Shown here one piece after another: positions 3,250 to 54,499 of a stretch of 64,000 bases of DNA. The stretch is from Paraburkholderia phenazinium (lineage in GTDB: Bacteria > Pseudomonadota > Gammaproteobacteria > Burkholderiales > Burkholderiaceae). The stretch spans positions 4,278,001-4,342,000 of the forward strand of contig NZ_FSRM01000001.1 of assembly GCF_900141745.1 (NCBI RefSeq). Direction: 5' to 3'. Made by a program: the position numbers and the translations under genes. Position 1 is the stretch's first letter. Every line of letters starts with the position of its first letter. A model generated the notes under the pieces. The model saw only the letters and a list, made by a program, of their open reading frames with translations. It was not told the DNA's origin and made no database searches.

Positions 3250-4515
3250 CGACCGAAAAGGGCATATTCCTCAAGCTGTGGCTTTGTTGCCTCTCACACA
3301 AATATTGCGTACTGTATGAGATATGAACGTTAAGCGCGCATACCGATTCCGGTTCTACCCCACGCCCGAGCAGGAAATGATTCTTGCCCGGACGTTCGGG
3401 TGCGCGCGATTTGCCTATAATTATATGCTGCGACAGCGCACCGACGCGTGGTATGGACGTCAGGAACGCATGGGTTATCACGAAACCTCCGCGGCGCTTA
3501 CCGAACTCAAAAAGAGCGAAGAGCACGCGTGGCTCAATGAGGTCAGCTCGGTCCCAGTGCAGCAGGCGTTAAGGCACCTGCAAACGGCCTTCGCCAATTT
3601 TTTCGCAGGGCGCGCAAAGTACCCGACCTTCCGACGGAGGGACGGCACGCAGTCGGCCGAATACACCACCAGTGCCTTCAAGTGGAACGGGAGCGTTCTC
3701 AGACTGGCGAAGATGAATGCGGCACTTGCAATTCGCTGGTCACGCACAATTCCCAAGGGCGCAAAGGTAACGACCGTCACTGTGTCGAAAGACGTGGCAG
3801 GTCGATACCACGTTTCAATGCTTTGCGACGACGTCGTGACCGCACGACCGGATACCGCTGGGAAGATCGGTATCGATCTCGGGCTTACGCATTTTGCCAT
3901 TCTGTCTACGGGAGAAAAAATTGCCGCGCCGAACACGTTTCGAAAAAACGAGGCCCGGCTGGCAAAGCTGCAAAGGCGCCTCGCGAAAAAACAAAAGGGC
4001 TCGGCGAATCGCAGGAAAGCCAAGCTGAAAGTCGCGCGCATGTGTGCCAAGACAGCAGATTCCCGCAGGGACTTCCTGCACAAACTTTCGACTCGGTTGA
4101 TAAACGAAAACCAAGTGATCGCCGTCGAAAGCCTGTCAGTCCGCAACATGCAAAGCAATCGTTGTATCGCGAAATCGATCGCGGACGCATCTTGGTCGGA
4201 GTTCGTGAGGCAACTTGAGTACAAGGCGCAGTGGTACGGACGATCGCTGATCGGTGTCGACCGCTGGTATCCCAGCTCGAAGCGCTGTTCCAGCTGCGGC
4301 CATACGGTCGCGAAAATGCCGTTAGATGTTCGCGCATGGACGTGCCTTGAATGCGGAGCAACGCATGACCGCGATATCAACGCCGCTCGCAATGTTTTGG
4401 CCGCCGGACTGGCGGTTTCAGCCCATGGAGAGGTTGTAAGTCCCATGTCTCTTTGAGGCATTGGCTAAGCTCTACGAAGTGGGAATCTTCTCCTTTCACG
4501 GAGAGGAGCAGTCAA
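3250..4515 (+). mobile_element. IS200/IS605-type element carrying only tnpB (IS1341-like)
   Basis: A single tnpB gene with no tnpA, inserted between ruvX and yqgE, both on the opposite strand. The right end is clear: after the tnpB stop come GTGGGAATC, a TCTCC/GGAGA hairpin (4489-4493 with 4500-4504), and a terminal GTCAA at 4511-4515, the usual right-end layout of this family. The left end is not sharply defined; a small imperfect hairpin (CAAGC, TGTG, GCTTTG) lies near 3272-3287, so the left boundary is probably between 3240 and 3270. No target-site duplication is expected for this family. The element is less GC-rich than its neighbours. Confidence 0.8.
3323..4456 (+). CDS. tnpB: RNA-guided endonuclease TnpB (IS200/IS605 family)
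   Basis: A 377-residue TnpB with all hallmarks of an intact nuclease. It has an N-terminal helix-turn-helix start (AYRFRFYPTPEQ), RuvC-I GIDLGLTHFA with Asp185, RuvC-II IAVESLSVRNM with Glu269, a zinc ribbon with Cys322/Cys325 and Cys341/Cys344, and RuvC-III HDRDINAARN with Asp349 and Asp351. TnpB enzymes use an omega RNA from the element's right end to cut DNA beside a short target-adjacent motif, helping the element persist at its donor site. Without tnpA the element would need transposase in trans. Length is usual for the family (about 370-420). Confidence 0.93.
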   Translation: MNVKRAYRFRFYPTPEQEMILARTFGCARFAYNYMLRQRTDAWYGRQERMGYHETSAALTELKKSEEHAWLNEVSSVPVQQALRHLQTAFANFFAGRAKYPTFRRRDGTQSAEYTTSAFKWNGSVLRLAKMNAALAIRWSRTIPKGAKVTTVTVSKDVAGRYHVSMLCDDVVTARPDTAGKIGIDLGLTHFAILSTGEKIAAPNTFRKNEARLAKLQRRLAKKQKGSANRRKAKLKVARMCAKTADSRRDFLHKLSTRLINENQVIAVESLSVRNMQSNRCIAKSIADASWSEFVRQLEYKAQWYGRSLIGVDRWYPSSKRCSSCGHTVAKMPLDVRAWTCLECGATHDRDINAARNVLAAGLAVSAHGEVVSPMSL

Positions 4516-11682: not shown

Positions 11683-13356
11683 TCATCGCGTGCTGGCGAC
11701 GCTGCACCACTGATACGGATACGTACCTTGTCCGATATGCCCGTGAAAAATCCTGCATGATCCGGCGTCAAGCAAGAATCCGTAGTCGGCTAACGCTCTA
11801 CCCGAGTCAGTGAGTTCCGCTGAGTTCTTCGCTGTGTCCTCGCGACCATCAGTCCAGTAACCAGGTATTAGCGCGTACACAGGACCACCTCGCGTCCTGG
11901 CGATATCGTGAACCTTGTTGTCATACGCCGGCCGCGTCTGCGGGAACGCCGACCTGATCGAAGCGAATGCAACCGTATTGGGGAACATCGGCACCAGCCA
12001 GGCGAGCGGCGGATCGCCGGCAGTAAGCAGCACGGTCGTTTTCTCCGGGTCGGGCAGTGGCGGCACGTCCACATCGAACATTTTCTTGGCCCACAGATCA
12101 TGTCCCCACGAATGCGCGCCTCCGACGAGCACGACGATGGAGCAGACCACCAACAATACCGTCGCCAGGTTCCGCGCAACCCGATACGCAAGCAACTGTG
12201 TGAGCAGCAAATAAATAAAGAGAGGAAGGCAGAGCTCGATGGGCACCAGATATCGCTGGATACTGAACACCTTCAGCCATACGAGATACCCGATTACGAC
12301 ATAGGCGACCACCGGGCGGGCGGTAGACGGCAGCCTCGTCATCGAAACGCCTTTGCGAGCTCGCACAAAAGCCGCGATCATCCACCACCAGAAAATGACG
12401 TACGCAACGGCCCAGATTCCTTGATGCAGTCTCGCCTGTCCAACCCGGTAGGGATTAATTGAGAAGACGAACGGAAAAGCCACTGCTTCCCAGATGCTGC
12501 TTGGGAACCATCTGGTGTCGACGGCCCCTACCTTCGCCGTCAATGCGCTCGGGAAGACGGAACTGAACTGCGGATAAAGAGGGTTGCCATACAGGTGCCA
12601 TAGATTTGCAAACCAGTAGCCGCCCGTCGCAGCCAAACCCAGAAGTACGCCAACCCCGAAGACGAACGAAAGTCGCAGCCGTGCAATCGCAGTTGTCGGG
12701 ACACACAGCAGTCCTGCACATACCGCGACCGAATACACGACGTTTGTGAGCTTCAGCCCCGCCCCCATACCGGAAATCACGCCCGCGACTGCAATGATTA
12801 AAACGACACGCGCACTCGCCCCGGTAAGGCGGGACCAGACTGTCATCACGATCAGCAGTGCGCCCAAGCTAAAGAGCGATGTCGTGTTGTCGCCCATCGA
12901 ATTGCCTATGGCCGACATGAAGTTTGCGGTAAGGCAGCCCGCGAGCGCCAGCCAGAACGACGTCCTGTTCCGCTCCTGCTCCGGCAGATTGGCAAGCGCC
13001 TGGTGACATATTCCAAGCAGCAGCACAAAGTTGAGGCCGTGCACAACACCCATAATGAATCCCACCACCATCGCGGGGAGGTGCATCGCCATCAGGTAGT
13101 ACGGGACATCCAATAACGGGTTGAAATAACTCTGCATTCCGGCTGGCGCCAGATCGATGGACATCTTTCCATGCAGTAATGCGAACGCGTTATACAGGTG
13201 ATAATTGCGGATGTCCCAGTTCGAATCCGCACCCTGTGTCAGCGAATAGATGCCGAATATCAACGGCACAATCCAGCATGCGATCAATAGGGATCGAGCG
13301 CTGTTCATACGCGGCAGAAAAGGCCAGCTCTGGCGCGCGGTGACATTTGTATTCAT
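11683..13356 (-). CDS. Polytopic membrane protein, probable lipid-linked glycosyltransferase (GT-C type)
   Basis: 557 residues with about 10-12 hydrophobic segments. Early in the sequence comes a periplasmic-type loop with DSNWDIRNYHLYNAFALLHGK; acidic residues in the first large loop are typical of GT-C enzymes that take sugar from a polyprenyl-phosphate carrier. A soluble C-terminal domain follows the last membrane segment. It is third in a run with a GT2 (GtrB-like) and a GtrA protein, the same three-part logic as gtr serotype-conversion cassettes. GtrB-type enzymes load the sugar on the lipid, GtrA flips it, and the third protein transfers it. The sugar acceptor is unknown. GC is lower than in the flanking core genes. 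Confidence 0.65.
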   Translation of the reverse strand: MNTNVTARQSWPFLPRMNSARSLLIACWIVPLIFGIYSLTQGADSNWDIRNYHLYNAFALLHGKMSIDLAPAGMQSYFNPLLDVPYYLMAMHLPAMVVGFIMGVVHGLNFVLLLGICHQALANLPEQERNRTSFWLALAGCLTANFMSAIGNSMGDNTTSLFSLGALLIVMTVWSRLTGASARVVLIIAVAGVISGMGAGLKLTNVVYSVAVCAGLLCVPTTAIARLRLSFVFGVGVLLGLAATGGYWFANLWHLYGNPLYPQFSSVFPSALTAKVGAVDTRWFPSSIWEAVAFPFVFSINPYRVGQARLHQGIWAVAYVIFWWWMIAAFVRARKGVSMTRLPSTARPVVAYVVIGYLVWLKVFSIQRYLVPIELCLPLFIYLLLTQLLAYRVARNLATVLLVVCSIVVLVGGAHSWGHDLWAKKMFDVDVPPLPDPEKTTVLLTAGDPPLAWLVPMFPNTVAFASIRSAFPQTRPAYDNKVHDIARTRGGPVYALIPGYWTDGREDTAKNSAELTDSGRALADYGFLLDAGSCRIFHGHIGQGTYPYQWCSVASTR

Positions 13357-13383
13357 CTCGTTTTATGCCAATGAGGTATCAGA

Positions 13384-13770
13384 TTACCTTTTGAAGGCCC
13401 ACAGCTTCGCGGCAAAGAAGTTAACAAATAACCCCGCGACCGAACCGCAAGCCACGGCAATCAGAGGGATCAGTCGTCCACCGTGGATGGTAAGCACAAC
13501 GGTCGAGTAGGCTGCATAGTTCACGCTGGCGCCGCCGAGCATGGACAAAAGATAGCGCCACCATTCGACCCACGCCGATCTTTGCGCACGCTCGCGGAAG
13601 GCATGCCGCCTGTTGATGCGCCACGTCACCCAGACCGCCGCCATGAACGAAACGCCCCGTCCTGCGAACAGGCCCAGGCCGCAGGCAAGCGCGAGGTACA
13701 GAACTCCGGCATCGACAACGAAACCGATCACGCCCGCGATGGCGAACCGGATGAATTGACTGCCGATCAC
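13384..13770 (-). CDS. GtrA family membrane protein
   Basis: 128 residues with four predicted membrane helices, starting IGSQFIRFAIAGVIGFVVDAGVLYLAL and containing VTWRINRRHAF, both typical of GtrA. GtrA proteins are thought to flip polyprenyl-phosphate-linked sugars across the inner membrane. The start overlaps the stop of the GT2 gene by 4 nt, indicating translational coupling. It is followed after 27 bp by the polytopic glycosyltransferase. Confidence 0.92.
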   Translation of the reverse strand: MIGSQFIRFAIAGVIGFVVDAGVLYLALACGLGLFAGRGVSFMAAVWVTWRINRRHAFRERAQRSAWVEWWRYLLSMLGGASVNYAAYSTVVLTIHGGRLIPLIAVACGSVAGLFVNFFAAKLWAFKR

Positions 13771-14705
13771 GAGTGTTTTGGTCCTGGAGTGGCCAGATAA
13801 GCCAGGCGCTTGGTTTCAGCCCGTCCGTGAGTAACGGTGTCGAGTACGATGCCACAAACCAGCAGGATGCCGCCGAACAGCATGAGCGCCACACACAGCA
13901 AGGCAGTCGGAAGGCGCGGTACGAGTCCCGTCTGCAGGAATGTCTGCAGGAGCGGTATCGCCAGCAAGACTGAAGCGATCGCGCACAATAGAGAACCCGA
14001 GGAAAAAAACGCGAAAGGTTTTTCGGACTTCAGAAGCTTGACGATGGTGACCAGGATACGGAAGCCGTCGCGGTAAGTATTCAGCTTGCTGGCCGAACCT
14101 TCCGGGCGCGACCTGTAGACGGTAGCGACTTCCGACACGGGCATCCTGAGTTCCAATGCATGCACGGTAAGTTCGGTTTCCGTTTCAAATCCAGACGCAT
14201 GAGCCGGGAAAGACTTGACATAGCGCCGCGAGAAAACGCGAAAACCCGAAAGCATGTCCGTAAACGTACTCCCGAAGACCGAAGAGACGCATCGGGTCAG
14301 CGCAACATTGCCGAACCGATGACCGAACCGGTACGCAGACTGTTCTTCACTGATACGCGTTCCCACAACCATGTCCAGGCCTTCATCGAGAAGCGCTGCG
14401 ACCATCCCTGGCGCCGCATTGGCATCGTACGTATCGTCACCGTCGACCAGCACATAAACGTCCGCCTCTACATCCGCAAACATGCGCCGGATAACGTTGC
14501 CCTTGCCTCGCAGCGTGACCTTTCGAACGGTTGCGCCCGCCGCTTGCGCGGCTTCAATGGTTCCATCCGTGGAGTTGTTGTCGAAGACGAACACCTGAGC
14601 GCCCGGCAACGCTTCCCTGAAGTCGCGTATCACGTTCGGAACCGTCAAGGCTTCGTTAAGGCAGGGGATCAAAACTGCGATTCGACAGGTGGACGATGCG
14701 GTCAT
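13767..14705 (-). CDS. GT2 family glycosyltransferase, GtrB/DPM1-like
   Basis: 312 residues. The N-terminal GT-A domain has VLIPCLNEALTVPNVI, VFDNNSTDGT and the metal motif DGDDTYD, followed by MLSGFRVFSRR. Two hydrophobic segments close the protein (about 235-300), as in GtrB and dolichyl-phosphate-mannose synthase-like enzymes that transfer a sugar to undecaprenyl phosphate. First gene of the three-gene cassette, overlapping gtrA by 4 nt. Confidence 0.88.
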   Translation of the reverse strand: MTASSTCRIAVLIPCLNEALTVPNVIRDFREALPGAQVFVFDNNSTDGTIEAAQAAGATVRKVTLRGKGNVIRRMFADVEADVYVLVDGDDTYDANAAPGMVAALLDEGLDMVVGTRISEEQSAYRFGHRFGNVALTRCVSSVFGSTFTDMLSGFRVFSRRYVKSFPAHASGFETETELTVHALELRMPVSEVATVYRSRPEGSASKLNTYRDGFRILVTIVKLLKSEKPFAFFSSGSLLCAIASVLLAIPLLQTFLQTGLVPRLPTALLCVALMLFGGILLVCGIVLDTVTHGRAETKRLAYLATPGPKHS

Positions 14706-15650: not shown

Positions 15651-17045
15651 ATGGTGAACAAGGTGCAAACATCCGCGTCCGATCTAGGCGCTCCCCGCGG
15701 AGGCACGTCCTCGGGGCTGTCGCGCTGGTTCAGCGGACAGTCGATCGCACGGCTCGCCGGCTTCGGCGTGGTGATCTTCATCGCGTGGACGCTGCTTTCG
15801 ATGGTGATGCCGCCTATGTTCTTCCGCTCCTCGCAACGGGCCGTGGTCGATGTACCCACCACTCTCGTCACCACACCGATTGAAGGCACGGTCGCATCGC
15901 AGCGGCTGCACATCGGAGACCGGTTTCATGCCGGCGATGCACTGGTGGATATCCAGAACCAGAACGTCGACCGCTCGACGCTCGTCGAACTGACCAGCAA
16001 AAGGATGGAACTCGCCCAGCAATACGATGCAGTCAGCACGCAACTCGATGCATCGCGTATCCGCCTTGCCACCGCCGATCAGCAAATGACCAAGTATCAG
16101 GCGGCCACGCAGAAGATGAACGACGCCACCCTTTCCGGCATCCGCTCGAAACTGGCCATCGCCAACACACAGATCGACGCACAGCAGGACATCGTCAACC
16201 GCGACTCGACGCTGGCCGCGGCCGGCGCAATCAGCGGGTCGGTCAGCGACACCTCGAAATACCAGCTATCCGAGTTACAGAATGCGAAAGCCGCGATACA
16301 GGCGGAACTGCAGGCAGCCGAGACGGATAGCCAGGCGTCGAAGAACAAGGTCTTCTTCGACGACAAGGACAACGGCGTATCCACGCTCGCCCACGAGCGC
16401 GAAGATCTGCACAACACGGTGGACCAGTTGACCGCGCAGGCAAGCGCACTCCAGCAATCGCAGAGCACCATCGATCAGTTGATCGCCAAGGAACGCGACC
16501 GGGTCGACCGCATGTCCAATTTTGAAATCAAGGCTTATGGCGACGGTGTCGTCAAGGACGTGCTGGCTCCTCCGGGCACGCAGGTAAGCGCCGGCGCAAC
16601 GTTGATTCGCGCTGTCGATTGCTCGCGCGCCCAGGTCGTCGCCGTCTTTCCGCGCAGCCTCAGCGACAGCCTGCTGCCAGGCACGCGTCTGAAGGTACGT
16701 GTCGATGGCGTCGACCATCCGGTTGGCGCTTCCGTCACCGGGCTCTTGCCGCGTGCGTCCGATGGTGACCAGGCCCGCTACTTCGTGCCGTTCCCATCAA
16801 TCGAATCCAACGAGATCTACGCACTCGCCACTTTCGACAAGCCACTCGATGCGAATGCACAAGGTGATGCGGTGCAAAGCGGCAGCGTTCAGGGCAACAA
16901 CGCGCCGGGTGACGGCACGCAAAGCGGCTCGTGCAAGCTGGGCCAATGGGTGCATGTAAGCATCGACCGGCCTTGGACGAACCGGCTGCAGGCCTTCCTT
17001 GGCGGCCACATGCCGGGACTGTCGTCCGGCGGCAGCCAGTCGTGA
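15651..17045 (+). CDS. HlyD/Alg44-like membrane-fusion protein of exopolysaccharide locus
   Basis: 464 residues from ATG 15651, which has GAGGTGAGG just upstream; the frame extends to 15492 but without a good start. One membrane helix (about 33-55) is followed by a biotinyl-lipoyl-like half (TTPIEGTVASQRLHIGDRFHAGD), a long alpha-helical coiled coil rich in Gln/Ala, the second lipoyl half (GDGVVKDVLAPPGTQVSAG), and a beta-barrel domain. This is the layout of periplasmic adaptors such as HlyD, EmrA, Alg44 and BgsB. A Gly/Ser/Gln/Asn-rich insert lies at about 402-427. First gene of the operon with the alpha/alpha-barrel protein, the GT2-PilZ synthase and the NodT lipoprotein; it probably links synthase to outer-membrane channel. 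Confidence 0.85.
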   Translation: MVNKVQTSASDLGAPRGGTSSGLSRWFSGQSIARLAGFGVVIFIAWTLLSMVMPPMFFRSSQRAVVDVPTTLVTTPIEGTVASQRLHIGDRFHAGDALVDIQNQNVDRSTLVELTSKRMELAQQYDAVSTQLDASRIRLATADQQMTKYQAATQKMNDATLSGIRSKLAIANTQIDAQQDIVNRDSTLAAAGAISGSVSDTSKYQLSELQNAKAAIQAELQAAETDSQASKNKVFFDDKDNGVSTLAHEREDLHNTVDQLTAQASALQQSQSTIDQLIAKERDRVDRMSNFEIKAYGDGVVKDVLAPPGTQVSAGATLIRAVDCSRAQVVAVFPRSLSDSLLPGTRLKVRVDGVDHPVGASVTGLLPRASDGDQARYFVPFPSIESNEIYALATFDKPLDANAQGDAVQSGSVQGNNAPGDGTQSGSCKLGQWVHVSIDRPWTNRLQAFLGGHMPGLSSGGSQS

Positions 17046-17077
17046 TTCGTGTGTCTCGGCGCGGCCCGGAGGTCGTC

Positions 17078-18367
17078 ATGCGAAGTTTTTCGACACGGTT
17101 GCGGATACAGGCGTTAGAGGCGCTCGCTATGCTGATCTCCCTGGTAATTTTCCTGTCGCCCGCCCCTGCCAGGGCTGCGGATTCCCCCGCGCAGCAACAG
17201 AAAATGCTGGAGACGGGCTGCGACGCACTCGTCCATCAGGTCGCTGCGATACCCGGCAACGGACCGGCGTTTGTGCAGAGCTATGAAGCCGCAGATGGCC
17301 AACCGCTCGCTCCCGCCTTGCAAAACGCCGCCTTCGTCTACGACAACGCGCTCGCCAGTATTGCGCTCGTCGCTTGCGGCAAGACCGCAGAAGCGCGACG
17401 GATTGCCGATGCATTGGTCCTCGCGACCTCACATGACCGCCACTACCACGACGGACGTTTGCGCAACGCGTATCGTGCCGGAGCCGCCAGTCACGACCCG
17501 CTCGAGTTGCCGGGATGGTGGGACGCGCCCGCGAATCGGTGGGATGAAGATGCGTATCAGGTCGGCTCGGCCACCGGTAATGTCGCGTGGGCCGCGTTAG
17601 CTCTCATGACGCTGTACGACACCACGCACGACCGGCGCTATCTCGATGCCGCGGCTTCGCTGATGAACTGGGTCGCCACCAACACCTTCGATGCTGGACC
17701 GCCCGATGGTTTTATCGGTGGCTATTTCGGCGAGGAGCCGCAGCCGCTGCGGCAGTCGTGGAAGTCGACAGAACAGAACGTCGATACGTACGCCGCTTTC
17801 AGTTGGCTCGCGCGCGCAACCGGCGACTCGCATTGGACAGCGCAAGCCCAACACGCGCGAGATTTCGTCGCGGCCATGTGGAACGCGCAGGAAGGACGCT
17901 TCAACATCGGCACACAGAATGATGGCCGCACGCTCAATGCGGGTCCATCGGCCATCGACGCCGAGCTATGGCCATTGATCGCACTGCCAGGCAACGCCAC
18001 CAGCGGCTGGGACCACTCAATCGACTGGACCCTGCAGCATCACCGCACCGGCGCCGGCTTTGGCTTCAACGCCGCACCCGATGGCATATGGACTGAAGGC
18101 ACCGGGCAAGCGGCTTTGGTGCTGCAAGCCCGAGGACACGGTCAGGATGCGGTGCCGCTGTGGGACGTATTGCTCAGTCAACGCGCCCCGTCCGGACTGC
18201 TGTATGCCACACCGAACGAGCGCATCCGTACGGGCCTCGCGATCGGGCCCACCTCGAAGAACGCGGATTTCGACTACTTCCACCTGCCTCACCTGGGCGC
18301 TACCGCCTGGGCTGTGCTGGCGGCAGCAGGATGGAATCCTTTTACGGGCCGCAGGCTCGGCGCCTGA
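17078..18367 (+). CDS. Secreted six-hairpin (alpha/alpha-barrel) glycosidase-like protein
   Basis: 429 residues from ATG 17078, placed 5 bp after GGAGG; a longer frame overlaps the preceding gene and is unlikely. An N-terminal signal peptide (hydrophobic LAMLISLVIFLSPAPARAADS) directs it to the periplasm. The body has repeated paired helices with aromatic-acidic motifs such as GWWDAPANRWDEDAYQVGS, STEQNVDTYAAFSWLA, SAIDAELWPLIAL and IWTEGTGQAALVL, as in six-hairpin glycosidases. It is not the GH8 BcsZ type. Placement inside an exopolysaccharide operon suggests trimming or editing of the nascent polymer. The exact glycoside hydrolase or lyase family is not recognised, and activity is inferred. 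Confidence 0.72.
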   Translation: MRSFSTRLRIQALEALAMLISLVIFLSPAPARAADSPAQQQKMLETGCDALVHQVAAIPGNGPAFVQSYEAADGQPLAPALQNAAFVYDNALASIALVACGKTAEARRIADALVLATSHDRHYHDGRLRNAYRAGAASHDPLELPGWWDAPANRWDEDAYQVGSATGNVAWAALALMTLYDTTHDRRYLDAAASLMNWVATNTFDAGPPDGFIGGYFGEEPQPLRQSWKSTEQNVDTYAAFSWLARATGDSHWTAQAQHARDFVAAMWNAQEGRFNIGTQNDGRTLNAGPSAIDAELWPLIALPGNATSGWDHSIDWTLQHHRTGAGFGFNAAPDGIWTEGTGQAALVLQARGHGQDAVPLWDVLLSQRAPSGLLYATPNERIRTGLAIGPTSKNADFDYFHLPHLGATAWAVLAAAGWNPFTGRRLGA

Positions 18368-18381
18368 CTGGATACGCTGCC

Positions 18382-20343
18382 ATGTACGAACAATTCTTCG
18401 ATACCAGCACGCTGTTCAATATCAATCTGGGTACGCTCGCGATCGTGACGGTGCTCTGCCTCGTGTCGGATCGGCGTCGCACTTTCGACCGGATCGTCGT
18501 CGGCAGCGTGACGGCCTTTCTGCTCGTCAACTACCTGCTATGGCGCAGCACCTCGACGTTGCCCGAATTCAAACCGGAACTCGCGAGCGTCTGGCCATAT
18601 TGCTTCTTCGCGTTCGAACTGCTGACCGTGACGTACACGCTGTTCTCGATCGTCGTGCTGACGCGCAGTTCCGACCATAGCGAGCGGGCCAACCGTGGCG
18701 AAGCGAAGCTCAGGCGTAGCCCAGCCGTGCCGGCCGTCGACATCTTCATTGCCACGTATAACGAAGGCCTCGACGTGCTCGAGAAAACCATCGTTGCCGC
18801 TTTGGCTGTCGACTATCCGAACTTTAAGGTGTGGGTGCTCGACGACACACGTCGCGACTGGTTGCGCTCGTTTTGCGAGGAAGTCGGCGCGCACTATCTG
18901 ACGCGTCCCGACAATACGCACGCAAAAGCCGGCAATCTCAACAACGGCCTGCAGGCAACCGCAGCGCTCACCAACGCGCCCTACATCCTCGTGCTCGATG
19001 CGGATTTCGCGCCGCAGCGAAACATCCTCATGCGGACCATCGGCCTCTTTGACTCGCCTGATATCGGTGTCGTACAGACTCCGCAGTTCTATTACAACGC
19101 CGATCCGATCCAGTACAACCTGCGTTCGACCGAGTGCTGGGTCGACGAACAACGCGTCTTCTTCGACGTGTTTCAACCCGCGAAGGATGCCTGGGGCGCG
19201 GCCTTTTGCGTCGGCACCTCGTTCGTCGTGCGGCGCGATCTGCTGAATCTGATCGGCGGATTTCCCACTGGCACAGTGACGGAAGACATCCACCTGACGT
19301 ACCGGCTATTGCCGCGCGGCTACAAAACACGCTGGCTCAACGAGCGGCTAAGCGTCGGACTGTCTGCCGAAGGACTGCCTGAATACATCACGCAGCGAAG
19401 CCGCTGGTGTCTGGGCACGATACAGGTAGCACTCCTGCCGGACGGACCGTTTCGTGGCAAAGGCTTTGCGTTCATGCACCGGTTGCACTATCTGCACGGC
19501 ATGCTGCACTGGTTCAGCCGTCCGTTCATTCTGATGATGCTGGTGGCGCCGCTCCTTTACTGGTACCTCGGGATTCCCTCGATCTACACGAACCCGGCGG
19601 AATTCCTCGCTTACGGCACACCCGCGCTGCTCGCATTCTGGTTTTACAGCAGCTGGATTTCCGGCTCGCGCACGCTGCCGGTGTTTACCGAAGTCACGCA
19701 GATCGTCGCGGCGTTGACCGTCAGCGCCACGCTGGCGAGTGCGCTCCTCAGACCGTTCGGACGTCCCTTCAAGGTCACCAACAAGGGCCTTGATCGTTCA
19801 CGCGTCGTCGTGCACGCCAAGCTGGCTGGTTTTTTCGGCAGCCTGATTGTGCTGTCGTCGCTGGGCCTCGTGCGCTCGCTGCTCGACAATCCCGGCGCTC
19901 CTGGCTTCGCCTTCAATGTCGTGTGGACCGCCATCGCACTCGCGCTGTATCTGGTGTCGTTGCTCGTCTGCATCGAGTTGCCGCGTCCACGAAAGGAAGA
20001 GCGCTTTCCGTTCGATGCCACCGCGCGGCTGAATGTGAACGGCATCGAATTTCCCGGCAACACGCGCGACCTTTCGTGCAGCGGTGTCGGCATGATCTGC
20101 GGGCGCGCACGTGACATCCCCGACGGCGCCGAAGGCTGGGTGAAGATCGAGCCAGCTGGCTGGGTCGCGTGCCGGGTCGTGCGTCATCAGGGCGATTTCA
20201 TCGGGCTCGAATTCAATCACATCAAGGCGACGCGTCACGCGTTGATCCGGCTGCTATTCAGCGAGACGCCGGTCAACCTGGCGAGCAAGGCGAAGCGCCG
20301 CATGGCGCTGGCGAGATTGCTACAACGAGCGTTCCTCGGCTGA
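18382..20343 (+). CDS. BcsA-like processive GT2 polysaccharide synthase with C-terminal PilZ domain
   Basis: 653 residues from ATG 18382, 14 bp after the upstream gene. There are membrane helices near 13-30, 37-55 and 72-95. The GT-A domain carries IATYNEG (123-129), VLDD (152-155), LDADF (205-209), TED (300-302) and QRSRW (338-342), the set that defines processive beta-glycan synthases. More helices lie in about 380-530. A PilZ domain follows with RKEER (537-541) and DLSCSG (563-568), the RxxxR and DxSxxG residues that bind c-di-GMP. Unlike cellulose loci there is no bcsB, bcsC, bcsZ or bcsQ; the partners are a HlyD-like adaptor and a NodT lipoprotein. This resembles BgsA of Sinorhizobium, which makes mixed-linkage beta-glucan with BgsB, but the polymer cannot be told from sequence. 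Confidence 0.92.
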   Translation: MYEQFFDTSTLFNINLGTLAIVTVLCLVSDRRRTFDRIVVGSVTAFLLVNYLLWRSTSTLPEFKPELASVWPYCFFAFELLTVTYTLFSIVVLTRSSDHSERANRGEAKLRRSPAVPAVDIFIATYNEGLDVLEKTIVAALAVDYPNFKVWVLDDTRRDWLRSFCEEVGAHYLTRPDNTHAKAGNLNNGLQATAALTNAPYILVLDADFAPQRNILMRTIGLFDSPDIGVVQTPQFYYNADPIQYNLRSTECWVDEQRVFFDVFQPAKDAWGAAFCVGTSFVVRRDLLNLIGGFPTGTVTEDIHLTYRLLPRGYKTRWLNERLSVGLSAEGLPEYITQRSRWCLGTIQVALLPDGPFRGKGFAFMHRLHYLHGMLHWFSRPFILMMLVAPLLYWYLGIPSIYTNPAEFLAYGTPALLAFWFYSSWISGSRTLPVFTEVTQIVAALTVSATLASALLRPFGRPFKVTNKGLDRSRVVVHAKLAGFFGSLIVLSSLGLVRSLLDNPGAPGFAFNVVWTAIALALYLVSLLVCIELPRPRKEERFPFDATARLNVNGIEFPGNTRDLSCSGVGMICGRARDIPDGAEGWVKIEPAGWVACRVVRHQGDFIGLEFNHIKATRHALIRLLFSETPVNLASKAKRRMALARLLQRAFLG

Positions 20344-20401
20344 GGACGCAACAGCATTCTCCACCGCACTTCTCAGCTTTTGCGAATCGGAAATCAGAAG
20401 A

Positions 20402-22090
20402 ATGAGGATCAGCATGCATAAGTCCTGTCTCTCGATGATCTGCCTGAGCCTGCTCACTGCATGCTCGTTCGAACCGACCTATGAAAGGCCGGCTGCCCCA
20501 GTCGCCGGTACCTACCCGAACGGCCCCGAATACCAGTCGGGATCCTCCGGGCAAAATGGCGGTAACGGCGCCGGGCCGGCCGCGGATATCGGCTGGCGCG
20601 ACTTCTTTGCCGATCCGCGCCTGCAACGCCTGATTTCGATTGCATTGCAAAACAACCGCGACTTGCGTATCGCGACGCTAAACGTCGAGGATTTGCGCGC
20701 AAAGTATCAGATTCAACGTTCGACCCTGTTTCCGACCGTCGATGCGCTGGCCAACTCGACCACGCTGCATCAACCGGGCGCGCTGCAGTATGCGGGCGAG
20801 CCATCGACCATCTATAGCGTAGGCGTCGGTGTGACCTCCTATGAACTGGACTTCTTCGGGCGCGTGCGCAGCCTTAAGGATCAGGCGTTACAGCAGTACT
20901 TCTCGACTGAACAGGCGCGTACCAGTGCGCAGATCACGCTGGTTGCCGAAGTCGCAAACGCGTATCTGACGTGGGAAGCGAATCAGGAACTGGTGGCGCT
21001 GGCGCAGGCAACCTTGAAGTCGCAGAAGGAAGGCTATGACATGATGACGCGCCGGGTCGAGGGCCGCGCGGCCTCGCAACTCGATCTGGAGCGCGCGCAA
21101 ACCCAGGTGGAGACGGCCGATACGGCACTCGATGAATACCGTCGCCAGGCGGCGAAAAGCGAAAACGAGCTGACGCTGCTCATCGGCAGGCCGATTCCGA
21201 ACGATCTTCCGCCTGCGCGTCCGCTCGAAGCACAAGGCATTCTGGCGGACCTGCCGGCAGGCCTGCCGTCCGATCTGCTCGAGCGCCGGCCTGACATCAT
21301 CGCAGCGGAAGACCAGCTCAAGGGCGCGAACGCAAATATCGGCGCGGCGCGCGCGGCATTCTTTCCGCGCATTACCTTGACTGGTACGTTTGGTGTCCAA
21401 AGTACTTCGCTCGCGGGGCTCTTTTCCAGTGGTCTTGCGTGGAGCTTTGCGCCCCAGGTCACCTTACCGATCTTCGACGCCGGCTCGAACAAGGCGAACC
21501 TGGCCTCCGCAAATGTCGAGAAAAACATCTACGTGGCGCAGTACGAAAAGACCATTCAGACGGCCTTTCGCGAGGTATCGGATGGGCTGGTGGGACGCAC
21601 CACCCTGGATAGCGAGGCACGCAAGGAGCAGACGCTCGTCGACACCACGTCGAAGAGCTATGATCTTTCGATGATGCGTTACCGCGCAGGCGTAGGGGAT
21701 TACTTCGATGCGCTCGATACTCAGCGTTCGTTGTTTGCCGCGCAGCAGACGCTGGTTGAAGTGCGTCTGGCGCGTCTGACCAACCTCGTCACGCTCTACA
21801 AGGCACTCGGCGGCGGATGGACTGAAACGACTGCGCAGGCCGCGCAGCCGGCGCCGGTGGCGGCTGTCGCGCCGGCTGTCGCGCCTCGGGCTGCGCCGGC
21901 TGCGGCGCCCAGGGTTGCGGCTGCGGCGGCCGCTGCGCCGACGGTTGTTACTACACCATCGGCTGCGCCTGCCACTGCGTCGACCGCCGCACCTGCACCT
22001 CCAGTTGTCGTTGCCTCGCCCGCTCCGCAGCCCGCGCCATCCGAAACACAGCATCGAATGTTCGCCCCGATCCAGTCCAGCAGCAACTGA
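20402..22090 (+). CDS. NodT/TolC-type outer-membrane efflux lipoprotein
   Basis: 562 residues. A lipoprotein signal with lipobox LTAC is near residue 20, followed by CSFEPTYERPAAP, typical of NodT-family outer-membrane factors. Two repeated OEP domains form the TolC-like barrel and helical tunnel (RIATLNVEDLRAKYQIQRS, then LLERRPDIIAAEDQLKGANANIGAARAAFFPRITL). The last ~75 residues are an unusual Ala/Pro/Val-rich tail. An alternative ATG at 20414 sits closer to GAGGA. As last gene of the EPS operon it probably supplies the outer-membrane exit for the polymer, replacing a BcsC/AlgE-type porin. Confidence 0.88.
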   Translation: MRISMHKSCLSMICLSLLTACSFEPTYERPAAPVAGTYPNGPEYQSGSSGQNGGNGAGPAADIGWRDFFADPRLQRLISIALQNNRDLRIATLNVEDLRAKYQIQRSTLFPTVDALANSTTLHQPGALQYAGEPSTIYSVGVGVTSYELDFFGRVRSLKDQALQQYFSTEQARTSAQITLVAEVANAYLTWEANQELVALAQATLKSQKEGYDMMTRRVEGRAASQLDLERAQTQVETADTALDEYRRQAAKSENELTLLIGRPIPNDLPPARPLEAQGILADLPAGLPSDLLERRPDIIAAEDQLKGANANIGAARAAFFPRITLTGTFGVQSTSLAGLFSSGLAWSFAPQVTLPIFDAGSNKANLASANVEKNIYVAQYEKTIQTAFREVSDGLVGRTTLDSEARKEQTLVDTTSKSYDLSMMRYRAGVGDYFDALDTQRSLFAAQQTLVEVRLARLTNLVTLYKALGGGWTETTAQAAQPAPVAAVAPAVAPRAAPAAAPRVAAAAAAAPTVVTTPSAAPATASTAAPAPPVVVASPAPQPAPSETQHRMFAPIQSSSN

Positions 22091-22146: not shown

Positions 22147-22509
22147 CTACACCATCCTGTCCAGACATGCCCATACGGCGCCGTCGATCTCTTCGGCGTC
22201 GTATGTCATCGCGCGGGCACCCTCGAGGCACGCGTTAGAGGTAGTCAGGCGCCGCACCACCTGCCCGTTGACGTCGAATCGCCACCCGTGTTCAGGACAT
22301 GCGATCAACCCACCCGTCACCCGCCCACGCGACAGCTCCGCCCCCCGGTGCGGGCAATGGTCACGCCACACATGCACGTCCCCTTCCGCGTCTCGCCACA
22401 CCACAAGCTGCCTGTCCTGGACCACGCACCCTAGCGCAGTCTCCTTGCCGACCTCCGCAGACTGGCAGACAAGCTCCCAGCCCTTCCGCTGATGTGATAT
22501 GTGGGTCAT
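22147..22509 (-). CDS. Rieske [2Fe-2S] domain protein
   Basis: 120-residue single-domain Rieske protein with ligands Cys52-x-His54 (CPHRGAELSRG) and Cys71-x-x-His74 (CPEHGWRFD). It is soluble with no membrane anchor or catalytic oxygenase domain, so it resembles ferredoxin components or the N-terminal part of ring-hydroxylating oxygenases. No oxygenase gene is adjacent. It converges on the EPS operon and its partner is unknown. Confidence 0.92.
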   Translation of the reverse strand: MTHISHQRKGWELVCQSAEVGKETALGCVVQDRQLVVWRDAEGDVHVWRDHCPHRGAELSRGRVTGGLIACPEHGWRFDVNGQVVRRLTTSNACLEGARAMTYDAEEIDGAVWACLDRMV

Positions 22510-22817: not shown

Positions 22818-25800
22818 ATGAACGAATCCGCACGCGACGCTGAGACCGATGCGCTTCTCGCGAAACTTAAACGGGAAAATGCGGAGCTTCGCGAGGAGCG
22901 CGAAAACCTGCAACGCCTCGTGACCGAACACAACGAACTGCTGCATCTGACCAGCTTCGTGCTCAACAGGGTGCACGAGGCCGCCTATCTGCTCGACGAA
23001 GCCGGCCGGCTCGTCTACGTCAACGAAGAGGCCTGCCGCACGCTCGGGTACAGCAATGCCGAATTGTTGCAGATGAGCGTGGCAGACATCGATCCGGAAT
23101 GGACCATCCCCCTGTGGAAACAGGAATGGTCGGTGCTGCGCGAGCGAGGCTCACGCATCATCGAGACCACGCACCGCCGCAGGGACGGCAGCTCGTTTCC
23201 GGTCCAGGTCAACGCCAACCACTTCGAATACGGCGGGAAAGAATACAACCTGGCGCTCGCACGCGATGTCACGGAGCGCGAGCACGCAAAGCACGCACTG
23301 CGGGAAAGCGAACAGCGTTACCGGCAAGTCTTCGATAATGTCTCGGACGTGCTTTATCTGCTCGAGGTCACGCCGGAAGGACGCTTTCGCATACTCGAAA
23401 TGAACCCGAGCGGCGTGCAGTCGCTCGGCATTCCAAGGGCGGAGTTGATCGGCAAGCTCTTCGACGATGTGGTGCCCAACGAAGTATCCAGCGTCCTGAT
23501 CGAAAAATTCAGGCGATGCGCCCAGTCCGGCGAGGCGTTCGACGATCAAAGGACGCTCCAGCTACCGACTGGGCCGCACCACTACCACTCCACCCTGATC
23601 CCCGTGCACGACGAGTCAGGACGGGTGCACAGAATTGTTGGTATCGCGCGCGACATGACGGCTCATCACCGGACGGAATCGCTGCTGACCACCCAGCTGG
23701 AACTCGAAGCGCAGTTTCGCAGGCTGGCAGAAAGCACGCTCGACGTGATCTGCCGTTATGACCGCCAATGCCGTCTGGTCTACGCAAATTCAGGGCTTTC
23801 CACGACATTGCGCAAGCCCTTGCGGGAGATGCTGGGTAGGACTCCGACCGAACACGAGCCCGATGGCCGCTACGCGCAGTACCAGGCGCTGCTCGCGGAC
23901 GTCATCGCAACCGGCACCGAGCACCAGATTGAAGTCGTGATACAGGATAGCGGCAATGGCACGCGCCATCATCATGTTCGCCTCCTCCCCGAGCGCGGCC
24001 TGCAGGACGAGATTGTGGGCGCGCTTGCTCTTGGGCTCGACATTACCGCGCGCAAGGAGGCCGAGTTGCGCCTCTATGCGAGCGAACAGGCCTTCCGTGC
24101 CGTTGTCGAACATTCGCCCGATTACATCGCCCGCTACGATCTGAGCTACCGCCGCATCTACGCCAACCCGGCGCTTCTCAAGCTGATGCGTCTGCCTGCC
24201 AGCGACGTGCTCGGCACGACGCCGGCCGAGCGAGGGTCGTTCGTCGATGCCGCCCGCTACATGCAGCAGTTGCAACACGTGGTCGAAACAGGCATGGAAG
24301 TGACCGAAGAGTTAGCGCTGCGGGATGCCGGAGGCCGGATCCGCTGGGGGCATATGCGTATCGTTCCCGAGTTTGCACCCGACGGTACGGTGGCCAGCGT
24401 GCTCGCCATCAGCCGCGACATCGACGAACTGAAGCGTAGCGAGCAGCTCTTTCGTACGCTCACCGAGAATTTCCCGGACTTCATTGCCCGCTTCGACTGC
24501 GAGAGCCGTCATCTGTACGCCAATCCGGCCATCGCCCGAGCCTTTGGCGCGCCGCAGGAAGCCTTTATCGGCAAGACGCCCCGGGAGTTGGCGCCAACCT
24601 CCGACGCAGAACAGAACCTACGCCTCGAGGAGGCCGTCCGGCGTGCGTTCGTGGAGGGGCAACCGAACACGCATGAAGCACGTTGGCTAACTGCCAATGG
24701 CCCCCGTATCTTCGAGGTGCGGCACGTTCCGGAGAAGGACGACGAAGGCCGCGTCGTCAGCGTGCTGGGCATTGCTCACGACGTCACGCGTCTGAGAGAT
24801 ATTGAACTGGCATTGCGCGATAGCGAACGGGCCTTTCGCACGCTGGCGGAAAACGCGCCGGATCCCATCATTCGCTACGACCGTGACTGCCTGCGCACGT
24901 ATGTGAACCCAGAGTTCGAACGCATCAGCGGTGTCGGGGCGCCGAAGCTGCTTCGCAAGCAGGCCGGTCAGGTACCGGCTGCGACGGCCGAAGTCGCGCG
25001 GCGCACCCGCGCGAAACTGAAGGAGATCATGGAAAGTGGCGTGGCGGCCAAATTCGAGCTGGCCTGGACCAAACACGGAAAATCGCAATGCTGGTACGTG
25101 CATGCGGTGCCCGAGTACAACGCGGATGGGGTCGTGCAGAGTGTACTGACTATCTGGCGCGATATCTCCGAACGCAAGGAAGCCGAACAACGCCTGTACG
25201 AGTCCTACGACTTGCTGCGCGAACTCACCTCGCGCCGCGAAACAGCACGTGAGGAAGAGCGCAAACGTATCGCCCGCGAGATGCACGACGAACTCGGCCA
25301 GCACCTGACCGCACTGCGCATGGGTGCCTCGACGCTGCGTCTGCGCTTCGGCCACGACAACCCGGCTCTCGGCGAGCACGTTCAGAAGATATTGCTGCTG
25401 GCGGACAAGACGATCCAGGTGGTACGCGACGTGGTTGCCTCGTTGCGCCCCGCGGTGCTCGACGCGGGTATCGCAGCAGCGCTCGAATGGCTCGCCGACG
25501 AATATTCGCAGAATGGCGAGACGGCCTGCCGCCTGCGCGTGCCGCAGGAAAGTCCGGAGCTTGCCGAGGACCGGGCCATTGCGTTGTTCCGGATCGTGCA
25601 GGAGGCGCTCACCAATGTCACGCGGCATGCCAACGCGAAAGAAGTGTTCATCACGCTCGAACAGAAGGGCAACGACTGCCTGCTGGAAGTGCGCGACGAT
25701 GGCCGCGGATTCGATCCCGTAGCAATCCGCAATAAATCCTTTGGCCTCGCGGGAATGAAGGAGCGTGTGCTGATGCTCGGTGGTGCGCTCGACGTGGTCA

Positions 25801-25871
25801 GTTCGCCGGGCAACGGCACCCTCATCAAGGTGCGCGTGCCCGTTTCGGTCAGGGCGGTGGACTTCTCCTGA
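22818..25871 (+). CDS. Multi-PAS sensor histidine kinase (NarL/HisKA_3 type)
   Basis: 1017 residues without membrane helices. An N-terminal coiled coil (about 5-45) precedes six tandem PAS domains, recognisable by repeated starts (SEQxFR...xxDxIxRYD...xYANP) near 55, 165, 295, 420, 545 and 675. The last four are close relatives, suggesting duplication inside the gene. A HisKA_3 domain follows with RKRIAREMHDELGQHL and His823, then HATPase_c with EALTNVTRHANAKE, DDGRGFD and FGLAGMKERV. Such kinases phosphorylate LuxR-type regulators; none is encoded next to it, so it is an orphan. The ligands of the PAS domains (for example haem or flavin) cannot be told. Confidence 0.93.
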   Translation: MNESARDAETDALLAKLKRENAELREERENLQRLVTEHNELLHLTSFVLNRVHEAAYLLDEAGRLVYVNEEACRTLGYSNAELLQMSVADIDPEWTIPLWKQEWSVLRERGSRIIETTHRRRDGSSFPVQVNANHFEYGGKEYNLALARDVTEREHAKHALRESEQRYRQVFDNVSDVLYLLEVTPEGRFRILEMNPSGVQSLGIPRAELIGKLFDDVVPNEVSSVLIEKFRRCAQSGEAFDDQRTLQLPTGPHHYHSTLIPVHDESGRVHRIVGIARDMTAHHRTESLLTTQLELEAQFRRLAESTLDVICRYDRQCRLVYANSGLSTTLRKPLREMLGRTPTEHEPDGRYAQYQALLADVIATGTEHQIEVVIQDSGNGTRHHHVRLLPERGLQDEIVGALALGLDITARKEAELRLYASEQAFRAVVEHSPDYIARYDLSYRRIYANPALLKLMRLPASDVLGTTPAERGSFVDAARYMQQLQHVVETGMEVTEELALRDAGGRIRWGHMRIVPEFAPDGTVASVLAISRDIDELKRSEQLFRTLTENFPDFIARFDCESRHLYANPAIARAFGAPQEAFIGKTPRELAPTSDAEQNLRLEEAVRRAFVEGQPNTHEARWLTANGPRIFEVRHVPEKDDEGRVVSVLGIAHDVTRLRDIELALRDSERAFRTLAENAPDPIIRYDRDCLRTYVNPEFERISGVGAPKLLRKQAGQVPAATAEVARRTRAKLKEIMESGVAAKFELAWTKHGKSQCWYVHAVPEYNADGVVQSVLTIWRDISERKEAEQRLYESYDLLRELTSRRETAREEERKRIAREMHDELGQHLTALRMGASTLRLRFGHDNPALGEHVQKILLLADKTIQVVRDVVASLRPAVLDAGIAAALEWLADEYSQNGETACRLRVPQESPELAEDRAIALFRIVQEALTNVTRHANAKEVFITLEQKGNDCLLEVRDDGRGFDPVAIRNKSFGLAGMKERVLMLGGALDVVSSPGNGTLIKVRVPVSVRAVDFS

Positions 25872-46225: not shown

Positions 46226-46494
46226 GGCTTGCCGCCACGGTGCGTCCCTCGCCGCGTTGTAAGGCATCTTTCAGGCATGCCCGCCAACTTGCGCTATCAG
46301 TACCACTACCAGGTCACATTTGATTGACAATTCTCACATCGTCTTACAACAATAGCAGTAAGGATCCCATCAGAAGGTCCTGCCCGATCTCGTCACTGCG
46401 TCTATGCATTCCGCCGCGCACGAGCGTCGCCACGTCGCTCCCTGGAAGACGAATGGATGACCACTTATCGGTAAGACAAAAGGAGATGAATCAA

Positions 46495-48690
46495 ATGGCA
46501 GCGCATGACAAAGACGATACTCCGCTCCCCGCACCCCACAACAACGCGCCCGCCTCGCCTGGCCGGCGCGCGTTTATGGCCTTTGCCGGAGTATCCGCAG
46601 GTGCAACCCTTCTCGCGACCGGCCGCGCAGCGGTAGCGGCAGACCCCATGTTTCCGTTTCCTTCAGGTCCCGGAGACCAGCTTCCGCCACAACCCGGCCA
46701 CCCGTTCGCGTCCGACCCAATCTGGGGCCCAGCCGGCGAGGCCACGGCCGTCATCAGGAGGCTCGCCTACATCAGGCCCGAGATGTTCTCCCGCGCAGAC
46801 TTTCACGTGATGAGCTACGGTGCGCGCACGCTGCCCGCCTCCGCGCTGATTTCGTCGACCGCGTGGCCGGGCGGCAAGATTCCCTGGGTGACCGGCGGCA
46901 CGGAGCAGACGGCGCATCCGACCAGCGACCTGCAAAGCCCCGGCTCGGACGTGATGGTGCCGTGCGACTACACGGGCACGCAGCACGACTCGTGCGCCGC
47001 GTTCAATGCCGCGATCATGGACGCGAATCGTGCCGGCGGCGGCCGCGTGGTGGTGCCGGCCGGCAACTGGTATTGCGGCGGTCCGATCGTGCTCCTGAGC
47101 CACGTGAACTTCCATCTGGAGTCGGGCTGCACGATCTATTTCAGCCCTAACCCGGCGGATTACGCGAAGAGCGGTCCGTACAGGACGGCGAACGGCAATC
47201 TGTACCACACGCGCTGGCAGGCGAACGACTGTCTGAATTTCGGCTCGCCGATCTATGCGTTCCGCCAGACCAACATTGCACTGACCGCCGACGACAACAC
47301 CTGCGTGCTGAACGGTCAGGCGATGACGCCGATACAACTGAGCAATCAGCCGCCGACCTCGTGCTGGTGGACCTACAAGGGCAGCAGCAACACGTATGGC
47401 TGTGCGGGTTCGTCGACGCCATCGCAGGCTTATGCGAATCCGAACAACGTCCCACTGACGAGCCTCCCCGCTTCCCAGATCAAGAACCCGCAGGCAAACG
47501 TCTCCTTTACCAATCAGTACGGTGTGACGGGTTCGCTGATGGACCTGCTCACAGGCACGGGCTGGAACCAGGACCAGAACTATCTGCCCGCGCTGTCCGA
47601 GCTGCGCGTGCCGTTCGAGGACCGCATCTTCGGCAACGGACACTTTCTGCGTCCATGCATGATCGAGTTCATCGGGTGCACGAACGTGCTCCTGCAGAAC
47701 TACCACACGCAGAACACGCCGTTCTGGCAGCACCATCCAACCGATTGCATGAACGTCGTGATCGACGGCGTGTTTGCCGACAGCGTTGGCCCGAACAACG
47801 ACGGCTTCGATCCGGACGCGTGCAACTACGTGCTCGTACAGAACGTTCAGTTCAACACCGGCGACGACTGCATTGCAATGAAGTCCGGCAAGTACCTCGA
47901 CACCGAGTACGGTCCGATGCAGAACATCGTCGTGCAGAATTGTACGATGCAGAGTGGCCACGGCGGCCTGACGATCGGCAGCGAATTGAGCGCGGGCGTG
48001 CAGAACGTCTACGCTCGCAATCTGACGATGCAAAACGAGAACTGGGCGAGCAATCCGCTAAATATCGCACTGCGGTTCAAGACCAACATGAACCGCGGCG
48101 GGTACATCAAAAACGTGTGGATCAATGGCGTGACGCTGCCCAACGGTGTGAACCTCGCCGGCAAATATGGCGGCGGCGCGCTCGGCGCCGCCATCAGCAA
48201 GATCACCGGTACCGGAACGACCGGTCTTGCGACGAACCCGTCCACGGGTCAAGGCGGCCTGATTACGTTCGACTGCGATTACAGCCCGTCCGGCGATGCG
48301 GTACGCTGGACTCCGTCGGTGATCAGCAACATCAACATCTCGAACGTGAACGCGAGCGATGTGTCGGGGGCGGTATCGTACTCAATGCCTTCGGGCTTCG
48401 TCGCCGGGTCGAACTCGTGCTTCCAGGCGATCGTCATGCAGGGCCCCGAGGCGGTCGACTACAACGGTCCGCTGCCGGTGCCGACCGTAAGTCCGATCAG
48501 CGGCGTCACGATCTCGAACTGCAACCTCGGCTCGCCGGTGTGCACCGGCGCAGCCCCGACGACGCCTTCGACGTCTGCGTCGGCGGCACCGGGTCCGATC
48601 TTCGTGAGCAATGTCAGCGGTATTACGCTGAATAATGTGGTGATCACGGGCACCACGTACAACACGACGCTGAGCGCGTCGGCGACTTGA
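46495..48690 (+). CDS. Tat-exported GH28 polygalacturonase-like pectinase
   Basis: 731 residues from ATG 46495 (AGGAG at 46481-46485 is well spaced for it; the frame goes on to 46324). Twin-arginine signal (GRRAFMAFAGVSAGATLLATGRAAVAA) near residues 22-48. The parallel beta-helix domain holds the GH28 catalytic set: NNDGFDPDAC, NTGDDCIAMKSGK with Asp457/Asp458, GHGGLTIGSE with His489, and RFKTN in place of RIK. GH28 enzymes hydrolyse the alpha-1,4-galacturonan of pectin. It is much longer than typical (about 400) because of N-terminal and loop extensions. It suggests contact with plant material. Confidence 0.9.
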   Translation: MAAHDKDDTPLPAPHNNAPASPGRRAFMAFAGVSAGATLLATGRAAVAADPMFPFPSGPGDQLPPQPGHPFASDPIWGPAGEATAVIRRLAYIRPEMFSRADFHVMSYGARTLPASALISSTAWPGGKIPWVTGGTEQTAHPTSDLQSPGSDVMVPCDYTGTQHDSCAAFNAAIMDANRAGGGRVVVPAGNWYCGGPIVLLSHVNFHLESGCTIYFSPNPADYAKSGPYRTANGNLYHTRWQANDCLNFGSPIYAFRQTNIALTADDNTCVLNGQAMTPIQLSNQPPTSCWWTYKGSSNTYGCAGSSTPSQAYANPNNVPLTSLPASQIKNPQANVSFTNQYGVTGSLMDLLTGTGWNQDQNYLPALSELRVPFEDRIFGNGHFLRPCMIEFIGCTNVLLQNYHTQNTPFWQHHPTDCMNVVIDGVFADSVGPNNDGFDPDACNYVLVQNVQFNTGDDCIAMKSGKYLDTEYGPMQNIVVQNCTMQSGHGGLTIGSELSAGVQNVYARNLTMQNENWASNPLNIALRFKTNMNRGGYIKNVWINGVTLPNGVNLAGKYGGGALGAAISKITGTGTTGLATNPSTGQGGLITFDCDYSPSGDAVRWTPSVISNINISNVNASDVSGAVSYSMPSGFVAGSNSCFQAIVMQGPEAVDYNGPLPVPTVSPISGVTISNCNLGSPVCTGAAPTTPSTSASAAPGPIFVSNVSGITLNNVVITGTTYNTTLSASAT

Positions 48691-54451: not shown

Positions 54452-54499
54452 TATTGGAATCCTGGGGATAGCGCGCCCCACAGTTGAATAGTAGACAAC

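Follow-up and report, generated by a model that had tools for sequence, protein, structure and literature searches.

Gene content of the locus

We analysed a 64,000-nucleotide stretch of the genome of Paraburkholderia phenazinium (positions 4,278,001 to 4,342,000 of contig NZ_FSRM01000001.1, assembly GCF_900141745.1; this whole stretch is called the window below), in which an initial annotation made from the sequence alone had pointed to a four-gene exopolysaccharide secretion locus. Four open reading frames (ORFs) were verified at positions 15651-22090, all on the forward strand and tightly packed, and the coordinates reported earlier were confirmed, as were an HlyD_3, a GT2-PilZ and an OEP domain. 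In their order on the genome, the genes encoded a periplasmic adaptor of the membrane-fusion type (MFP), a secreted protein with weak similarity to glycoside hydrolases (GH), a glycosyltransferase of the synthase type (GT), and an outer-membrane channel protein (OEP). The features of the locus were as follows.

15651..17045, + strand: MFP, a HlyD/EmrA-type periplasmic adaptor (HlyD_3, 3.8e-9)
16200..16235, + strand: RLS motif of the adaptor hairpin tip, R184-x3-L188-x6-S195 (alignment; motif as defined in PMC3391258)
17078..18367, + strand: secreted GH-like protein of 429 aa with a signal-like N-terminus (hydropathy; weak GH76/GH127 similarity)
18331..20343, + strand, alternative start ATG 18382: PilZ-GT2 synthase (Glyco_trans_2_3, 1e-22; C-terminal PilZ, 1.7e-11)
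19279..19287, + strand: TED catalytic-base motif of the GT
19393..19407, + strand: QRSRW acceptor motif of the GT
19990..20004, + strand: PilZ RxxxR motif (RKEER), first half of the predicted cyclic di-GMP (c-di-GMP) site
20068..20085, + strand: PilZ DxSxxG motif (DLSCSG), second half of the predicted c-di-GMP site
20402..22090, + strand: OEP, a NodT/OprM-type outer-membrane lipoprotein (NodT model TIGR01845, 411 bits against a cut-off of 210; OEP, 6.6e-48)

The first two genes were separated by 32 bp and the last two by 58 bp. The GT gene overlapped the GH stop if it started at 18331 and left a 14-bp gap if it started at ATG 18382; the second start was more likely because many relatives aligned only from residue 18. 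Inner-membrane drug pumps of the RND, MFS and ABC types were absent from the operon according to its ORFs and a Pfam/NCBIfam scan of the locus, and the same scan found no bcs genes there.

The GT carried all of the GT2 and c-di-GMP motifs that had been read from it earlier (DD, DAD, TED, QRSRW, RKEER, and DLSCSG), together with FKVTNK; the catalytic set and the gating loop were both present. At loci of the family Burkholderiaceae, the RxxxR pattern was found in 47/47 cases and the DxSxxG pattern in 46/47, where these counts (like those for DEQR) were pattern matches anywhere in the six frames of a locus and the samples of loci overlapped. The PilZ motifs were degenerate in the GH-linked relatives displayed from outside the family.

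We placed the GT in a tree of 61 rows, from which L109, L059, L061, and L062 were absent; L110/L129 and L108/L160 were doubles, and the BgsA labels of L065 and L123 came from the replicon and the HlyD neighbour rather than from an accession. The GTs with a neighbouring GH gene, including the window GT, formed an exclusive clade (20 rows, 18 distinct, SH-like support of 1.0). It was nested in a 40-row non-BcsA clade that contained BgsA, most rows of which had an adaptor gene adjacent. The window GT was located outside the BcsA rows and, within the non-BcsA superclade, was also separate from BgsA's own clade. No CrdS was identified among the fetched GT loci, which comprised BgsA-like, BcsA-like, and other adaptor-linked GTs. 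It has previously been reported that clade 4 of PMC6821405 consists of alpha-, beta-, and gamma-proteobacterial synthases of no known function. The window GT, neither BcsA nor BgsA, probably belonged to this clade, judging from the description of the clade in that paper, with which the taxonomic spread agreed.

The MFP had a single N-terminal hydrophobic helix (residues 31-59 in a hydropathy scan) and, in the alignment, two lipoyl-like halves with a long hairpin region between them. The RLS motif was located about 85 residues past the first half and 98 ahead of the second. According to PMC3391258, RxxxLxxxxxxS is the TolC-binding motif of MacA, AcrA, and MexA, and the HlyD version is RLT. The tip R-x3-[LM]-x6-S was found in 44/44 adaptors of the family (28 from a GT-based scan and 16 from a family sample), and the window MFP looked able to dock on a TolC-type channel.

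Among the relatives outside the family, L057 and L058 were GT-adaptor pairs of Victivallaceae. In L057, a gene with an HD domain (HDIG) overlapped the GT stop, and an ORF of similar size came after the GT in L058. L064 and L067 were GT-adaptor pairs on Agrobacterium/Rhizobium plasmids with a convergent cache-domain gene adjoining.

The initial annotation had called the second protein an alpha/alpha-barrel hydrolase. The secreted ORF was confirmed, and the support for the barrel label was weak. Namely, the GH matched no Pfam or NCBIfam family above the curated cut-off and had no Pfam hit better than 0.01, and no Pfam annotation was found among the matches listed for its relatives (120 of 1949 and 120 of 1919). 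The closest solved sequence was a GH76 mannanase at E = 0.005, which was below confidence. Among 19 members of the GH protein family, 4 touched GH127 (best 3.3e-4) and others weakly resembled GH76, C5-epimerase, or GlcNAc-epimerase models. Thus, the fold was possibly an (alpha/alpha)6 barrel. Acids invariant in both of our alignments included D89, D120, D158, E232, D236, D294, D335, E340, and D397, from which we picked E232, D294, and E340 as candidate catalytic residues. We rejected the possibility that the GH was a divergent BcsZ, as the one BcsZ sequence compared had no profile similarity to it. Among the GT loci, the GH gene went with one GT clade and was found at 0/21 other GT loci searched, some with flanks of only about 1.5 kb.

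The OEP had a lipobox (LTAC, Cys21, identified by eye). The genome contained 31 matches to the NodT model, 29 of which were genes above the cut-off, the window OEP being one of them. At the C-terminus of the window OEP, about 85 residues formed a tail rich in Pro and Ala; the GT-linked OEPs extended 2-145 residues past the matched part.

Conservation of the gene order and descent of the channel

A GT-based genome scan gave 39 loci, 30 of which were from Cupriavidus, Burkholderia, Ralstonia, 'Burkholderiaceae bacterium 16', and one Bordetella metagenome-assembled genome. Among the Cupriavidus loci, L030, L047, and L051 came from strains of C. necator. All 30 had the GH-GT-OEP order on one strand. 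The MFP stood in front in 28 of them, and the remaining two contigs (L033 and L041) began at the GH. The GT and OEP of L052 were broken over several frames, and the L033 contig ended inside the OEP. For a second sample, 200 genomes of the family were evenly drawn, and the GH was present in 18 of them, including the P. phenazinium genome. In the 17 others, the OEP came after the GT without exception (13/13, and 4/4 by tblastn). The two samples shared at least 7 contigs. Homologues at 82-92% identity were present among the database matches listed. Outside the family, a genome from another family of the same taxonomic order (G569, loci L109/L168) had the full MFP-GH-GT-OEP order according to tblastn. 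Since the gene order was fixed across many species, a chance arrangement was ruled out, and the four genes most likely act as one unit, as had been proposed from the window alone.

Within the family, the channel genes showed the same linkage in their descent. We built an IQ-TREE phylogeny of 63 OEP sequences, in which the window OEP (L081) was removed from the paralogs, L052 and L033 were left out, and two further NodT genes of L026 and L027, which were not linked to a GT, were not counted among the linked ones. The 33 OEPs linked to a GT (32 distinct, as L039 and L118 were the same sequence) all grouped apart from the 28 NodT paralogs of the P. phenazinium genome, with a support of 99 UFBoot for the separating branch. 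When the L168 channel was included in a FastTree analysis, the 33 linked OEPs were still exclusive (0.998).

Of the 34 loci compared, several of which had short flanks, no more than 10 shared any gene beyond the four, apart from shadow ORFs. A wider conserved cluster was rejected on this count, and the recurrent genes listed were neighbours common to the Cupriavidus loci. Within the genus, the GH was found in 1/144 genomes, namely only in this P. phenazinium genome, suggesting that the locus either reached this genome by transfer or disappeared from the other members of the genus.

On the left of the locus, three ORFs on the reverse strand (11683-14705) encoded a GT2 protein, GtrA, and a 557-aa product without a Pfam family. 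On the right were a Rieske protein (22147-22509, reverse strand) and a PAS histidine kinase (22818-25871, forward strand). The GC content of the four genes was 0.60-0.64, compared with 0.56-0.58 over 5 kb on the left side and 0.61-0.64 on the right side. No RNA element was found near the locus at Rfam gathering scores. The promoter scan was at chance level (2 matches against 2.1 expected), and 13 terminator-like sites were found against 7.2 expected (standard deviation 2.9), none of which fell into an intergenic gap of the locus; neither scan was informative. Elsewhere in the window, there was an AdoCbl (B12) riboswitch (54497-54586, reverse strand) near the start of an ORF resembling TonB-dependent receptors (52526-54832, reverse strand), an IS605 OrfB/TnpB-like transposase with a TNB domain (3323-4456, forward strand), and a gene (46324-48690, forward strand) for a large protein of the GH28 (polygalacturonase) type, in which a Tat-like leader was recognized by eye.

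A proposed secretion machine and its alternatives

With this gene content, gene order, motif set, and co-inheritance, we consider it about two-thirds probable that the locus specifies a self-contained machine that secretes a beta-glucan in a synthase-dependent manner when activated by c-di-GMP, with a conduit from the HlyD adaptor to the NodT/OprM channel. In such a machine, the GT2 would polymerise a nucleotide sugar in the cytoplasm and pass the chain through a membrane channel that it forms itself, and c-di-GMP bound to the C-terminal PilZ domain would release the gating loop. The HlyD/EmrA-type adaptor would be seated on the synthase, and the RLS motif of its hairpin would dock on the NodT/OprM-type factor, resulting in one conduit from the synthase to the exterior. 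The secreted hydrolase-like protein may trim the polymer or clear stray periplasmic chains, in place of BcsZ or XcsC. The donor was most likely UDP-glucose, because in L116 and L117 galU was the next gene after the OEP, in the same orientation (above the NCBIfam cut-off in L116), and because of the relationship of the GT to CelA and BgsA. The GHs of these two loci resembled Pandoraea proteins. In keeping with a beta-glucan, the solved structures most closely related to the window GT were cellulose synthases.

Several observations weighed against this model. Only 10/16 adaptors from outside the family had R-x3-[LM]-x6-[ST] at the same column, among them BgsB with the RLT version, whereas the motif was missing from the adaptors of L006, L050, L056, L057, L063, and L109, the last of which (L109/L168) lacked the Arg of the tip. 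Moreover, the presence of RLS does not strictly predict docking to TolC (PMC4446572). All six GT-GH-MFP loci examined outside the taxonomic order (L003, L004, L006, L050, L108, and L110) had no OEP nearby, and thus a linked channel was not essential to loci of this kind. Conversely, the GH was found without a nearby GT at six loci (L005 and L111-L115), and it may be something other than a hydrolase. The L168 channel did not join the linked clade, and three RND-linked paralogs branched off between the two (0.894); therefore, co-inheritance was shown only within the family. The galU gene was present in only 2/46 loci searched, both from one genus. Finally, no experimental work on this locus was found in the open-access literature. 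The GT-less GH gene of L005 (8914-10134), from Azospirillum thermophilum, was close to hydrogenase genes.

The alternative that survived best, which we nevertheless regard as unlikely, was that the locus makes cellulose by another route, namely a plain beta-1,4-glucan with the adaptor and the channel replacing BcsB and BcsC, as for XcsA of Cyanobacteria. XcsA, a PilZ-GT2 protein with an HlyD partner and an endoglucanase, was described as a cellulose synthase (PMC12430437). Similarly, CelA (TIGR03030) was the best NCBIfam match of the window GT. However, the CelA score of 395 bits was below the cut-off of 699, whereas the genome's own BcsA scored 891 bits. The latter belonged to a separate bcsA-B-Z-C-type operon on another replicon (C2, 2516500-2536400, L120), where BcsB and BcsZ were over their cut-offs, a BcsC-like ORF reached 438 bits (cut-off of 858), and there was a BcsP/BcsR-like ORF. 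Thus, the statement of the initial annotation that the usual cellulose partners were absent held at the locus but not for the genome, and an ordinary bcs operon was rejected for the window locus. The position of the GT outside the BcsA rows also argued against this route. In our own alignment, through which the column of BcsA Glu299 was assigned, this column had Arg in 40/40 non-BcsA rows, including the window GT, and Glu in 20/21 BcsA rows. It has been reported that this residue is solely Arg in CrdS and BgsA (PMC6821405). The window GT also carried FC[VI]GTS where BcsA had FFCGS. Although such residues are no proof of linkage, these comparisons indicated that the window synthase is not a BcsA. 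The polymer may accordingly be new, as the initial annotation suggested, or it may still be cellulose, given the description of XcsA.

It was considerably less probable that the OEP was a general efflux channel that came to be in the operon by chance, with the polymer leaving elsewhere or the OEP serving RND pumps. The three nearest OEP paralogs in the same genome (51, 46, and 44% identity) were located in RND-pump operons, the L168 channel was not in the linked clade, and OprM was reported to be somewhat promiscuous between pumps (PMC8277102). Against this, all 33 linked OEPs of the family formed an exclusive clade, and the GT and OEP genes were adjacent in every family locus examined. For the same reasons, and since no pump was present at the locus, we rejected a separate drug-efflux unit consisting of the HlyD and NodT genes, which the initial annotation had named as the finding that would break the link. 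The channel probably originated from RND-type pumps. Either such a recruitment occurred more than once within the order, in which case the L168/L109 channel could possibly be a second recruitment, or the RND-linked copies were derived from a linked one.

The GT2 family includes makers of many polymers. Given this breadth, export of a non-glucan, such as an amino-sugar polymer or an oligosaccharide, was conceivable but quite improbable, as the nearest models of that type were weak (PgaC, 57 bits, and NodC, 34 bits, against 395 for CelA), galU was beside the OEP in L116 and L117, and BgsA was the nearest characterised relative that could be included.

Known systems and meaning of the locus

No paper on this four-gene locus was found in the open-access literature, which is weak evidence of absence, and the clusters that we found named in a Burkholderia pseudomallei biofilm study (PMC5507470) were other ones. 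The initial annotation had named BgsA/BgsB as the nearest parallel; in parts, the cyanobacterial Xcs system was closer. A 2025 review (PMC12430437) describes a XcsA-XcsB-TolC conduit with the endoglucanase XcsC, a model credited to Maeda 2018, and states that it lacks validation by experiment and is open to doubt because its genes are unlinked. By this description, the Xcs system comprises a PilZ-GT2 protein, an HlyD adaptor, a hydrolase that is adjacent in some species, and a proposed tripartite exit through TolC. The window had the first two, and the neighbouring gene was called a hydrolase from its position and weak similarity. For a TolC-type partner, the linkage of the genes, the OEP clade, and the RLS tip were in agreement. 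On the other hand, the TolC gene is unlinked in Cyanobacteria, while the channel gene was inside the operon here, and XcsC is called an endoglucanase, while the window GH belonged to no named family.

The BgsBA system of Sinorhizobium meliloti and Rhizobium etli, which makes a mixed-linkage (1,3;1,4) glucan, similarly has an HlyD adaptor beside the GT, although the GH gene intervenes in the window. Its synthase belongs to the same non-BcsA superclade with the DAD and DEQR motifs and c-di-GMP control, and the tip of BgsB is of the RLT type. In contrast to the window GT, which had a PilZ domain with both motifs, BgsA is without PilZ motifs (PMC5567048). Moreover, the BgsBA operon is described as bicistronic, without a channel (PMC9495663); it has no neighbour of the GH family, and its GT forms a separate clade. 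In the R. etli work (PMC5567048/PMC9495663), the HlyD-like domain was suggested to likely help form a channel, and in the portions of the literature accessible to us no outer-membrane partner was found named for BgsBA-type glucans.

The BcsABZC system shares with the locus a PilZ-GT2 protein, a periplasmic hydrolase, and an outer-membrane exit, but the window had neither BcsB nor the TPR-barrel BcsC, its hydrolase-like protein was unlike BcsZ, and its GT was outside the BcsA rows. The likeness to EmrAB-TolC and RND pumps consisted of an adaptor with the RLS tip and a NodT/OprM channel, whereas the inner-membrane part in the window was a polysaccharide synthase and not a pump.

Thus, the principle had already been proposed for Cyanobacteria, and the novelty here consisted of the channel gene in the operon and the unnamed hydrolase-like family, with PilZ control present. 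We tentatively suggest a broader view, which we hold at somewhat less than even odds. The locus may represent a tripartite exporter in which a GT2 synthase replaced the pump of an HlyD-TolC system within one operon, and its product may be a non-cellulosic beta-glucan edited by a new family of (alpha/alpha)6 hydrolases. Adaptor-linked synthases may generally use TolC-type exits, borrowed in most lineages, dedicated here, and perhaps recruited repeatedly in the order. Such a wider class is suggested by the RLS/RLT tip, which the window MFP has in common with BgsB and with the majority of the other GT-linked adaptors examined.

The locus addresses an open question, namely whether a TolC-type channel can receive the product of a polysaccharide synthase via an HlyD adaptor (PMC12430437). 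Since the channel gene was part of the operon at all of the family's loci that we examined, this question is testable by single-gene deletions. The locus could also point to the exit for BgsBA-type glucans, and it gives an unnamed family of GH-like proteins a biological setting.

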